Below, in pieces: positions 15,518-27,587 of a stretch of DNA of 34,853 nt. How positions within the stretch are numbered: the stretch's first letter is position 1; each line of letters opens with the position of its first letter. The translations under genes and the position numbers were made by a program. The stretch is taken from contig JABMNN010000070.1 in the NCBI GenBank assembly GCA_013204545.1, positions 1 to 34,853 of the forward strand, read 5' to 3'. A model generated the notes under the pieces. The model had not been told where the DNA came from. It did no database searches and was given only the letters and a program-made list of their open reading frames with translations. This stretch comes from Chloroflexota bacterium (lineage in GTDB: Bacteria > Chloroflexota > Dehalococcoidia > Lucifugimonadales > Lucifugimonadaceae).

Positions 15518-15610
15518 TGGCGGAGGGTGCGGGAGTCGAACCCGCGAGGAGGCTTTACACCACCAACCCGCTTAGCAGGCGGGCGCACTAGGCCACTATG
15601 CGAACCCTCC
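15518..15610 (-). tRNA. tRNA-Ser, anticodon GCU (encoded CCA end)
   Basis: The minus strand folds as a class II tRNA of 93 nt. Acceptor GGAGGGT pairs with ACCCTCC, the discriminator is G, and CCA is encoded (15518-15520). The anticodon stem CCCGC/GCGGG encloses loop CTGCTAA with anticodon GCT, reading AGC/AGU serine codons. A long variable arm (GGTGGT, GTAAA loop, GCCTCC) and a T arm GCGGG-TTCGACT-CCCGC complete it. The long variable arm is the serine hallmark. TTTTACTTTT follows the CCA on the transcript strand. Confidence 0.97.
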
Positions 15611-15735
15611 GCGTAAAATGTGCCAATGTGAACATCTTCAATATATATTCTCTCCCCTCAGACGGCAAAGAAGATATTCATGATTCTTGATGGTTATCGA
15701 ACATAATCTCCAAGCTAAGCCTGATTTCTTCCCGC

Positions 15736-22651: not shown

Positions 22652-22852
22652 ATGTGTAGAACCACCGCAGGACCGTTACTTGCGATAATCGGTGTTGCTG
22701 GTACGGCAGCCGGAGTGGGCTTGGCAGTAGTTCGCGAAAGACTCGACCGAATCTCTGACTCACGAGCGTCAAAACAAGCGGCTCAAGAAAAAGCCCAGAA
22801 TTCACCAGCCTCAGAAGAATCCCGTACAGCCGAGTCGAACGATATAGACTAG
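22652..22852 (+). CDS. Small single-span membrane protein, unknown function
   Basis: 66 residues from ATG at 22652. A hydrophobic, Gly/Ala-rich segment (about residues 7-26) is followed by a charged, Ala/Glu/Ser-rich cytosolic tail. No family is recognised. It lies 82 bp after the permease on the same strand, and its stop overlaps the convergent yyaL-type stop by three bases. The amphipathic layout and clean end support it, but no clear ribosome-binding site is seen. Confidence 0.5.
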
Positions 22853-24909
22853 CTAAGCTGCTCAACCAACTCAGCAACGCTCGACACAGGCAGCTTGCAG
22901 ACATAGTTTGCACACACGTACGCAGTTGCTTTGCCGTTAACTTGAACTTTTCCTTCCAGCAACGGCGATCTGTTAGTTAAATCTGGGACTGAGCTTATAC
23001 CGGCAAGAACGGTGTTCGGTGCGAACGAACTTCGCAGCTCACGTTTCATCGCAATGACAACCGGATCTGCATCATCACCGATCAACACAACTTGCTGAGA
23101 GTTTGAACGCAAGAAATCGACCGCGGCCAGCCAAGATGTGACCGACGACGGTGATTGTTCCATATACGGTATCAGCGCCTTCATCGAAGCTTCGGCTTTT
23201 GAAGCATAGTCGATGTCACCTGTGAAGATGCTCAACCGTAGGAGTGCCATAGCAGCGATGGCACCTCCAGATGGCAAGGCGTTATCGAGTACGTCTCTCG
23301 GTCGCACCAACAGTTTCGAGTGTTCAAGCGACGTGTCGTAGAATACTTCCCAATCTTGATCCCAAAAACGATTAATCATCTGATCAGCAAGCGACTGTGC
23401 CTCATCGATGTATGAATAGTCGAATGTGGCCTCATAAAGTGTCAGGAGAGCGTCGATCAGGCAGGAATGATCGTCAAGATAGCCGAGGATCCGAGCGTCG
23501 CCCTCTGATTCGTTAGTCGCCTTCCATGTGTGGAGGAGTCGACCCTGTGAGTCCTTGAGTTGATCAAGAAGAAGTCTGGCGTTCTTCTCTGCCGCAGCGA
23601 TCCACTCAGAGTTTTCGAGTACAGCTCCTGCCTCGGCAAATGCTTTGAGCATCATCGAGTTCCACGAAACTAGTATTTTGTCGTCGATATCAGGCGCAAT
23701 TCGCTGGGAACGAGCTTCAAGAAGAAGCCCTCTAATTCGTGTTATATCTCCGACAAGTTCGGATGACTCTCGCATAGTTCGGGAAATAAACTCCAGTCTT
23801 GATATTGGCAAATACAATATATTTGAATCTTCGAAGTTTCCTCCCTCCGTCACCCCCCAGTATGCCTTGGCAAGTTCGGCATCCGACTCGTCGAGGACGG
23901 TGTCGATCTCACCGGATGTCCAGACAAAATATTTCCCTTCGACTCCTTCGGAATCTGCATCAGATGCAGAGAAGAATCCACCAGTTGGGTGAGTCATCTC
24001 TCGCGTCACGTATTCAAGAGTTTCTTCAACTATCCTGATGAACAGTGGGGTTTTGGTGGCTTGATAGGCATGTAGATATAGTGAAACAAGTTGAGCGTTG
24101 TCGTAAAGCATCTTTTCGAAGTGAGGAACCAGCCATCGATCGTCCACCGAATATCGTGCGAATCCTCCGCCGATCTGGTCGTAAATACCACCTTGTGCCA
24201 TTTTTTCGAGGGTAAGTGTGACCATATCTAGCACCTGCGAACTGCCTGTTCGTTTCCAGTACCTGAGGAGAAGTTCGTAAACCATTGGCTGCGGAAATTT
24301 CGGTGCGCCTTTACTACCTCCATGTTCAAGATCCGCTAGACCTACCAGATGAGTGAAGCTACCGAATATCAGAGAATCATCGATCGTGCCATCGATTTTT
24401 TTGGGAGTCGACTGTTCTCGAATCGTGGCTACTATCTGTTGGGAGTTCGCTATGATTTCTTCTCGTCTATTTGCGTAGGCATCTGATATCGCAGCCAATA
24501 CTCTTGGGAACCCTGCCATATTGGGGCGGTCTTCGGGCGGGAAGTAAGTTCCACCAAAGAACGGCTGCCCATCGGGAGAAATGAAAACGGTAAGAGGCCA
24601 GCCACCCGAACCGGTCATAGCCTGAACGGCTGTCATGTAGATAGAGTCGACGTCTGGAAGTTCTTCTCGATCCACTTTGATATTCACAAAACCTGCATTC
24701 ATGACTGCTGCGATAGATTCATTTTCGAATGACTCGTGTGCCATTACGTGACACCAGTGGCATGCCGAATATCCGATTGACAATAAAATCGGTTTGTCGA
24801 GCAGTTTTGCGGCAGCTAGCGCATCTTCACCCCAGGGGTACCAATCGACCGGATTATCCTTGTGCTGAAGCAGATACGGGCTAGCTTCATTAGCCAATCG
24901 GTTGGGCAT
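22849..24909 (-). CDS. YyaL/SSP411-type thioredoxin-domain protein (DUF255)
   Basis: Large conserved protein with an N-terminal thioredoxin-like DUF255 domain fused to an (alpha/alpha)6-barrel region similar to N-acylglucosamine 2-epimerases; biochemical role uncertain. The start at 24909 ([16 protein letters not shown]) matches the family N-terminus and gives 686 residues; the frame opens 20 codons earlier without family sequence. The redox motif CHWC is at residues 50-53 in [11 protein letters not shown], with [11 protein letters not shown] and GGWPLTVF downstream, and [11 protein letters not shown] after that. Barrel blocks include [20 protein letters not shown]. It lies 120 bp after the NHL selenoprotein candidate on the same strand. 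Confidence 0.93.
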
Positions 24910-25029: not shown

Positions 25030-26538
25030 TCATAGTCCCGTCAGTACCAACGAATACACCTCATTGGTAGTAAGTTCAATGATTTTGATCTTGTGATTGT
25101 TAGTATCCGCGACATAAATCCGATCACCAACCACCACTAAGCCTGCCGGTTCGCTAAATTGTGCGGTCGTTGAATAGCCATTCACATCACCAAGTTTGCC
25201 TGATCCAGCGACCGTCTTCACCTGTAGTGAACCGATCGCTACTGACTTAACTTTATTGTTGTACGAATCAGCCACGTATATTACGTCGTTATGAACAGCG
25301 AGTCCTTGAGGATGTTGAAAGAGAGCGTCTTTTCCGACCCCATCGACGTCACCGAAATCGAACAGCCCCTTCCCGACAAGGGTAACCACTCTGCCCTCTT
25401 CAGCAATCGCTGAAACCCTCAGGGAACTTGTTTCGCTATCGATAAAGAACACTGCATTGTTTGATACCTCGACACCATATGGCTGAGCGAGTCGAGCAAC
25501 GGTTTTCAGATCATCAACGATATCTTCAAAGCCATCACCAGCGAACGGAGCCAAAGTACCCTCAACGATATTCATTGACCAAAGCTGATGAAATCCTGCC
25601 ATGGCGATGTACAGAACACCGTCGTACAAAGACAGGTCGTAGGGCGAGTTGAGAGGTATCCTGAGTGCCTCCCCACCTTTGTGCTTGTAGAGCGATTGTT
25701 CACCGGTTCCAGCGACAGTGGTCGCAGTTCCGGCGACTAAACTGACTTTCACAATTGTGTGAGTGCCTGCATCTGCGACGTAAAGAGTTTCGCCATCAAT
25801 CACTACACCCTGTGGGTTATCGAACAACGGTTGAGCGAATCCACGCTCGATAAACACAACTTGGCTCGCGTCTTTATTCAGTGGAGATTCGCCATTGCCT
25901 ATGATCACTTCAACTTTGCCTTCAATGTCGGTGATGATGACTCGGCGATTGTTGGAGTCGGAAATAACCAGCCAGTTTCTTTCGGCATCGGCGGTGATCT
26001 TCCCAGGAAACGAAAGTATAGATTTTTCGATGGTCTCTGGTTGAAGTTTGAGAGCCCCGCGTCTGAATAACCCTGATGGTTCGTGCTCGCTAATCATTTC
26101 GGCAATTACTCGATCGAGAACCTCGATAGGAAATTCGCCTTCGTGGCGACCTATTACCTTGCCTGATGGATCGAGGAACATCAGCGTAGGCCAAGCGCGG
26201 GCGGCGTAAGATTTCCAAATCTCGAACTCGGCATCATTTACAACTGGGTGACCGATTCTATACCGCCGAACTGCTTCGCGAACATTGTCAGACGATTTCT
26301 CAGCATTGAACTTCGCTGAGTGCACTCCGACCACACTCAATATGTCAGCATACTTAGTTTCCAGCTTCCGCAACTGCGGAAGTACATGCATGCAGTTAAT
26401 TCAGCAGTAGGTCCAGAAATGGAGTATTACAAGTCGACCTGTAAGATCGGTGAGTGTTATCGGTGAGTCGGTATTGAACCACTCGAGGTCTGCTGGAAAT
26501 TGTGGAGCATGGATCGTACCCTCGTATCTCGTCGCCAT
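25030..26538 (-). CDS. Thioredoxin-like/NHL-repeat protein (NHLRC2-like), candidate selenoprotein with in-frame UGA
   Basis: Predicted redox protein: an N-terminal thioredoxin-like domain (about residues 10-155) followed by an NHL beta-propeller (about 160-500). The ATG at 26538 opens MATRYEGTIHAPQFPADLEW and reads through LVILHFWTYC to a single TGA at 26401-26403, codon 46, then INCMHVLPQL and an uninterrupted frame to TGA 25030-25032. With that codon decoded the protein is 502 residues. NHLRC2-family proteins have TYCCINCMH here, so the UGA replaces the first Cys of CxxC (U46-I-N-C49). The downstream VGVHSAKF and HPVVNDAE blocks are also family hallmarks. A start after the stop (ATG at 26391) would remove the beta-strand and active site of the thioredoxin fold. 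The alternative is a nonsense mutation or base error. Confidence 0.85.
26365..26403 (-). promoter_or_regulatory. Candidate bacterial SECIS element after the in-frame UGA
   Basis: On the transcript, UGA (26403-26401) is followed by 18 nt and then a perfect 7-bp hairpin CUUCCGC-AGUU-GCGGAAG (26382-26376 with 26371-26365, loop 26375-26372). The loop starts 25 nt after the UGA and has G within its first two nucleotides, inside published limits for bacterial SECIS elements (loop about 16-37 nt away, G near the loop start). It lies within coding sequence, as bacterial SECIS elements do. Confidence 0.7.
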
Positions 26539-26654
26539 TCTGTGCCCCCAACTCGCCACTATTCAAACAATACCGTGCGATCAATCAATTCACGCTAAGC
26601 CGACCCATACTTGGCTCAACGAGCCAATCCGAGATCGGTTACCTAGTTTAGTGT

Positions 26655-27587
26655 TTATTCGTCTATAAACACCGGTTGAGTCCATGCGCGTGTTCCGCGT
26701 GACGAATAAACGGTGGCACGAACGTAGCCATCAAGACGAGTTGGTCTATATGACGGCGAATTACTGGTCGATTCGTAGAGCAGGCGACCATTCGTTCCCG
26801 TGAACAAGGTTGTGTACTTAGCCGAAATGCCATCTTTATGATTCGTCTCGGGATGAATATCAAGCTTGATTTCCCGGCGGTTTGACACCATGTCGCCAAT
26901 CGTGACTCCAGTCGAGGAATAGAAAATTCCATCCGACATAGCCGCGAAAATATCCTGCTGGCTTAACTTGGCTGCCTTCACTTGCACCCATCCTCTTCCA
27001 GGATTCGAACGGTTGGCGTTGAATTCACCGGTGTAGTGGTGTGAGTCGTCGACCGCAATTCCCCACACTCGTCGACCATTACTGAGCAATCGATCCCATA
27101 TGCCGTCTGTACTAGATTTCCCGCCGCCGCCCGCATTGTGTGTTTCGGGATGCCCGTTGAAGACCTCCATGAACTTGTACCCTTCAACCTGCATCATGGC
27201 ACCATCATCGAATGCCCATCGGAAGTTTGGGTGATTGATAGAGGCCATTCCCCCAGCAGCAATAATCCGTTCAACGTTCTCCCGCATTGCAGTAACGATG
27301 TCGGTGGAGTCAGACGCCTCGACCAAGTCGGTGACCCCGTAGCCATTCACGTGAACTGGTCCAATGGTGTTTCGGGAAGTGACTTCTTCCCCACTAACCA
27401 GCAAAGGCCATTTAGCCTTCGCTACATCACTATCTTCGAGAATTGTCAGATGGTTGTGGTCCGACAGGCATAGCCAATCGTAACCTTGCTCGTGATACCA
27501 CTCTGCAACGTGCTCCGGTGACTCATCACCATCGCTGTTAGTGGTGTGGGTGTGGAGGTTGCCTTTGAGCCAGCTTTTTATAGTCAT
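26655..27587 (-). CDS. PHP-domain metal-dependent phosphoesterase
   Basis: Predicted trinuclear-metal hydrolase of the PHP superfamily; substrate unknown. ATG at 27587; 310 residues. Metal-ligand motifs are in order: HTHTTNSDG (His12, His14, Asp19), SDHNH (Asp43, His44), SGEEV (Glu67), SINHPN (His119) and VDDSHH (Asp181, His183). The last 75 residues form a beta-rich region outside the PHP barrel, as in many PHP proteins of the COG0613 group. It is first of three minus-strand genes (gap 116 bp to the thioredoxin/NHL gene), so shared transcription is possible. Confidence 0.88.
   Translation of the reverse strand: MTIKSWLKGNLHTHTTNSDGDESPEHVAEWYHEQGYDWLCLSDHNHLTILEDSDVAKAKWPLLVSGEEVTSRNTIGPVHVNGYGVTDLVEASDSTDIVTAMRENVERIIAAGGMASINHPNFRWAFDDGAMMQVEGYKFMEVFNGHPETHNAGGGGKSSTDGIWDRLLSNGRRVWGIAVDDSHHYTGEFNANRSNPGRGWVQVKAAKLSQQDIFAAMSDGIFYSSTGVTIGDMVSNRREIKLDIHPETNHKDGISAKYTTLFTGTNGRLLYESTSNSPSYRPTRLDGYVRATVYSSRGTRAWTQPVFIDE

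Follow-up and report, generated by a model that had tools for sequence, protein, structure and literature searches.

Among solved structures, the best counterparts of the protein described here come from Arabidopsis and man. Human NHLRC2 combines a thioredoxin-like domain with an NHL propeller and carries the sequence CCINC at residues 89–93 (PMC6107167). It is essential, and FINCA, a fatal disease of childhood, is linked to variants of it; its molecular function is given as unknown (PMC6107167). The authors of the NHLRC2 structure consider the protein a redox enzyme and a conserved cleft between the thioredoxin-like domain and the propeller its binding site; in an insulin reduction assay, it had no activity (PMC6107167). 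SOQ1 of Arabidopsis is a chloroplast protein with other domains besides (PMC6107167).

Selenoproteins with a thioredoxin-type fold form the second point of comparison. A 2026 review puts the number of prokaryotic selenoprotein families and subfamilies at 119, and thioredoxin, thiol-disulfide isomerase-like proteins and a Redoxin family protein are among those with selenocysteine (Sec) at the first Cys of a C-x-x-C pair (UxxC); none of the thioredoxin-like UxxC proteins catalogued in that review is listed with NHL repeats or a propeller (PMC13188914).

How does the present locus compare? We analysed a stretch of 34,853 nucleotides, referred to as the window throughout, in which one gene would, judging from its sequence and that of its relatives, very probably encode a selenoprotein of the NHLRC2/SOQ1 family. 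The predicted protein matches this family over its full length, with a thioredoxin-like domain followed by an NHL propeller. Its best solved match is the lumenal part of SOQ1 (PDB 7djj, E 6.4e-102), followed by human NHLRC2 (PDB 6gc1, E 7.1e-96 over residues 5–494). Both differ from it in having Cys at the place of the UGA (Cys90 in the human protein), and NHLRC2 differs further in being eukaryotic and in having an additional C-terminal β-stranded domain (PMC6107167). DipZ (PDB 2hyx) also matches, at E 2.6e-20 over residues 9–158, though only through its thioredoxin-like part, with the NHL repeats lying outside the match.

The gene, its UGA codon and its neighbours

The frame runs without interruption from ATG to its terminal stop except for a single TGA, at codon 46 (Table 1). 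Around this codon it translates as FWTYC-U-INCMHVLPQLRK; the protein thus reads FWTYC-U-INCMHVLP where SOQ1 reads FWTYCCINCMHVLP. According to this alignment, the UGA falls on the second Cys of CCINC, where the C-x-x-C pair begins, and given the residue span reported for human NHLRC2 (PMC6107167), its position corresponds to Cys90. The family motif CC(I/V)NC accordingly appears as C-U-I-N-C, identical to the motif if Sec is counted as Cys. NHL and Thioredoxin_8 both score above their Pfam cut-offs. A first-pass annotation made from the window had described just this, an NHLRC2-like thioredoxin protein in which UGA replaces the first Cys of the pair, in one frame with no other stop over 502 codons, and all three statements are borne out. 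It had also warned that gene callers would lose the active site. The plain list of open reading frames indeed contains only the part from ATG 26391 (453 aa), from which the active site is absent, so automatic annotation may hide the UGA family.

Table 1. Positions in the window of the NHLRC2/SOQ1-type gene, its proposed recoding signals and the downstream neighbour.
Feature	Position	Strand	Basis
NHLRC2/SOQ1-type gene for a protein of 502 residues, NHL repeats following a thioredoxin-like domain	25030..26538	minus	translation, Pfam, solved-structure matches
Internal UGA at codon 46, putative selenocysteine codon; Cys relatives have the first Cys of their C-x-x-C here	26401..26403	minus	translation, codon table of relatives
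Codon 49, second Cys of the pair; proposed resolving Cys (U-I-N-C)	26392..26394	minus	translation; role conjectural
SECIS-type hairpin CUUCCGC-AGUU-GCGGAAG; stem 26382-26376 with 26371-26365, loop 26375-26372	26365..26382	minus	folding, covariation, published constraints
Terminal TGA, normal stop of the gene	25030..25032	minus	translation
DUF255 (Thioredox_DsbH) protein, Cys form; next gene downstream	22849..24909	minus	Pfam PF03190, 254 bits

The codons on either side of the UGA evolve as translated sequence would. Compared with the relative L022, the 45 codons before the UGA carry 6, 4 and 25 changes at codon positions 1, 2 and 3, respectively; the bias is similar in four other members of the genus, and within the genus change falls mostly on third positions both before and after the UGA. 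Nor is the UGA a lone error, since TGA stands at codon 46 in every one of the 17 genomes from the same family that match at E 1e-20 (six of them, our own included, from the same genus); four further genomes of that family gave no match at this threshold.

Downstream lies a DUF255 gene whose product has a thioredoxin-like domain of its own. The two genes adjoin in 13 of 118 loci, many of which carry little flank, and all 13 are among the 30 loci from the class search; this neighbour was found in none of 28 phylum loci, all with flanks. No conserved neighbours were reported for seven bacterial genomes (PMC6107167). Upstream, a CehA/McbA-type metallohydrolase occupies positions 26655–27587 of the minus strand; its end lies beside the gene in six loci of the genus and in none of the other 112 checked.

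Codon 46 among relatives and the selenocysteine machinery

The source genome (2.95 Mb in 134 contigs, 92% complete) encodes the components of selenocysteine insertion. The genome check proposed with the first-pass annotation found all four genes: selA at C47:1880 (518 bits, cut-off 268), selB at C123:22672 (338 bits including a neighbour in the same frame, cut-off 242), selC at C83:78954 (tRNA-Sec, 65 bits against a cut-off of 47, anticodon UCA by ARAGORN) and selD at C91:10344-11270 (L016 in genome G000, 374 bits). One in-frame TGA also lies close to the start of selD, whose product is itself probably a selenoprotein. Within the window, a match to RF01852 at 15521–15611 (49 bits, cut-off 47) was rejected as a tRNA-Sec, being tRNA-Ser(GCU) at 15518–15610 of the minus strand; a tRNA-Ser that scores above this cut-off is a trap for automatic tRNA-Sec calls.

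What do relatives have at codon 46? A search of the class matched 144 of 393 genomes at E 1e-20, many over the thioredoxin-like part only, and one of the phylum matched 80 of 400 sampled genomes at E 1e-60; in five other genomes examined, we found no homologue at E 1e-20. The class is probably Dehalococcoidia and the phylum Chloroflexota: seven genomes of one family of the class (f29), each a single contig of 1.4–1.9 Mb, carry 20–33 reductive dehalogenase matches apiece, as would be expected of Dehalococcoides and its relatives, and the phylum includes genomes above 10 Mb. Codon 46 was TGA in 46, TGC in 42 and TGT in 2 of the 90 class loci, and TGA in 22, TGC in 4 and TGT in 2 of 28 added phylum loci. 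A further 20 phylum loci, of which 16 had been picked with TGA and 4 without a stop, gave 16 TGA, 2 TGC and 2 TGT. Pooled, and with one shorter paralogue (L112, a TGA locus) excluded, all 137 phylum relatives have TGA (83) or a Cys codon, TGC or TGT (54), so that the codon check proposed with the first-pass annotation comes out in its favour; this ratio is no estimate of frequency, since 20 of the 137 loci were picked by their stop status.

On an unrooted tree built from 115 of the 118 loci read first, without L112 and two fragments, the UGA and Cys states require 6 changes, of which starred branches force 4, compared with a mean of 37 in shuffles; as no root was inferred, gains and losses of UGA look alike on it. 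One Cys form, L036 (G157:C18), clusters with the UGA family of the window with a support of 92, on a branch that is not starred, and its source genome, 97% complete, has no selB above the cut-off. L036 may possibly represent a switch from Sec to Cys.

Several other matches deserve mention in their own right. L112, in genome G239, is a thioredoxin-like paralogue of shorter length whose TGA occupies the corresponding position (FWTYT-U-INCLRTLP), and a match in G357:C193 resembles it and has one TGA; together they are perhaps a second Sec family. Internal stops also occur in other thioredoxin-like matches, namely a TAG in G276:C91, a TGA and a TAG in G378:C5 and two TGA in G024:C80, and the match of one UGA form, L078 (G073:C22), contains an additional TAG. 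A pattern scan of viral contigs returned two stretches, neither of which matched the NHLRC2-like protein at E 1e-3.

If the UGA is read as Sec, do the genomes that carry it have selB? In the class, selB scored above the cut-off in 39 of 41 genomes with the UGA form and in 29 of 39 with the Cys form, a table that covers 80 of 92 genomes and in which three Cys genomes (G129, G184 and G141) were classed by the absence of a stop. Restricted to genomes at least 90% complete, the counts are 34 of 34 and 25 of 32 (Fisher p 0.004), with the proviso that these genomes are not independent, five of the seven Cys genomes lacking selB coming from one genus. In the phylum sample there was no association, selB being present in 50 of 53 UGA genomes and 16 of 17 stop-free ones. 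The UGA genomes without selB above the cut-off (G111, G258, G507, G566 and G680) are 77–83% complete, and in G258 a fragment of selB lies where a contig ends.

A second phylum, probably Planctomycetota, also has the UGA form. There, 100 of 392 genomes matched at E 1e-70, and six of the 100 have one TGA (L172 and L176–L180), in every case at codon 46; 14 other loci read at this codon have TGC or TGT. Hairpins follow the UGA in all six and are mostly unlike those of the first phylum; two of them reach z −3.99 and −4.62 against shuffles, within limits chosen after the fold had been seen. SelB scores above the cut-off in five of the six genomes (in the sixth, a contig start truncates it to a piece) and in 17 of the 34 stop-free genomes covered, out of 94. 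On our reading, the UGA form may have been gained separately in this phylum.

A SECIS-type hairpin behind the UGA

Bacterial SECIS elements are described as having a loop of 3–9 nt with G in its first two positions, a stem of 4–16 bp, a spacing of 16–37 nt and a folding energy of at most −7.5 kcal/mol (PMC13188914). The hairpin behind codon 46 lies within all four of these constraints, with a 4-nt loop (AGUU), 7 bp, 25 nt from the UGA and −10.4 kcal/mol. Taken singly it would be unremarkable: the fold of the window's own sequence barely beats shuffles (z −1.63), as do those of three relatives (z −0.90, −0.87 and −1.40), the same strand of the window holds 34 hairpins of 7 bp with G in the loop among 34,836 positions, and Rfam gave no match within 26200–26600 at E 5. 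Such hairpins are thus not rare and single folds are weak, so the case is carried by conservation and covariation.

In the UGA forms the stem keeps its pairs through compensatory changes. The 67 UGA loci yield 61 distinct sequences, in which standard pairs fill 421 of 427 pair cells; 55 of the 61 stems are complete, and CAGUUG surrounds the loop in 60 of the 61 sequences. Double changes number 20, compared with 3.0 in shuffles, none of 500 of which reaches 20, and sliding one strand by 1–3 columns lowers the pairing to 33–71%. The 48 distinct sequences of Cys forms, by comparison, pair in 154 of 336 cells and have not one complete stem. Likewise, −7.5 kcal/mol or lower is reached by 63 of the 67 UGA loci, the other four missing it, versus none of 50 Cys loci. 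Codon choice follows the same division: over codons 53–57 (L-P-Q-L-R), UGA forms with the commonest residue are nearly single-codon (TTG for Leu56 in 45 of 45, CCG for Pro54 in 45 of 45) and Cys forms vary. Among the 16 UGA loci added later, 12 have all seven pairs, two have six and two (L189 and L191) have a shifted loop.

Rival readings and what the Sec form may mean

Could the gene be dead or misread, and the UGA a genuine stop? The window alone, with its single in-frame stop and behind it a draft assembly of 134 contigs, would be compatible with a pseudogene or a sequencing error; a UGA common to 83 relatives in the phylum, mostly third-position change on both sides of it within the genus and a covarying hairpin refute this, and we regard the chance as negligible. 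We attach equally little credence to the UGA being read as some other amino acid, whether by an altered genetic code or by a suppressor tRNA. Any reading of TGA would leave the frame open, but the same gene terminates with TGA, the relatives read show nothing except TGA, TGC or TGT at codon 46, and the genome has a tRNA-Sec with a UCA anticodon along with selA, selB and selD. Slightly less remote, and still very improbable, is that the UGA mostly terminates and translation restarts at the AUG at 26391, giving a propeller without an active site, perhaps as a selenium-dependent switch. Here, as in 26 of 45 UGA forms of the class, an AUG follows the UGA at a distance of four codons. Against a restart, the remaining 19 have Leu at that place, the 45 N-terminal codons evolve as coding sequence, and the hairpin is kept.

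A different objection grants the selenoprotein and disputes its novelty. The 2026 review lists a Redoxin family protein with a UxxC motif under PF08534 (HEU0032618.1; PMC13188914), and the NHLRC2-like protein, UxxC included, lies just above the PF08534 cut-off (26.9 versus 26.6 bits), the two having been compared by name, domain and motif only. Against this, "NHL" and "propeller" occur nowhere in the main text of PMC13188914, PMC12013277, PMC2398784 and PMC9312934, and none of the 10 listed NCBIfam models reaches its cut-off for the protein. "NHL" is also absent from the available text of PMC9402790 and PMC1088965, and among the matches listed from open-licence PMC, preprints aside, no title or abstract opening mentions a Sec-containing NHLRC2/SOQ1 protein. 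That the family is already catalogued under this or another generic thioredoxin-like entry we consider unlikely, with a real chance of proving true nonetheless. The first-pass annotation knew of no description of the family as a selenoprotein, and the literature covered here shows none; this part of its claim is supported without being certain, as the Redoxin family protein may be the same. Its central proposal, a selenoprotein candidate, has meanwhile gained support from the machinery, the codons of relatives, the covarying SECIS-type hairpin, the association with selB in the class and the second phylum.

How would such a protein work? Under the selenoprotein reading, the hairpin immediately behind the UGA would be bound by SelB together with Sec-tRNA(Sec), and Sec would be inserted as residue 46, so that the C-C-I-N-C of Cys relatives would become C-U-I-N-C. 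By analogy with the family structures, attack in the thioredoxin-like active site would fall to U46 and the resolving step to C49, beside a cleft with the propeller that would hold the partner. From the same structures we infer that a redox role is likely, the negative insulin assay of NHLRC2 (PMC6107167) counting against it. That selenocysteine would stand at exactly one Cys suggests that the Cys at this place is the reactive, attacking residue in the Cys forms too.

We see even chances that the NHLRC2/SOQ1 family is a widespread and so far unnoticed selenoprotein family of two phyla, probably Chloroflexota and Planctomycetota, with Sec common across much of the first, where Sec and Cys would have switched several times, and a separate gain with other SECIS hairpins in the second, and that this identifies Cys90 of human NHLRC2, the second Cys of CCINC, as the residue with which a genuine redox enzyme attacks. 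The selenocysteine form hints that this poorly understood family performs redox chemistry at its active-site Cys, and Sec at one exact Cys offers a direct test for both NHLRC2 and SOQ1.
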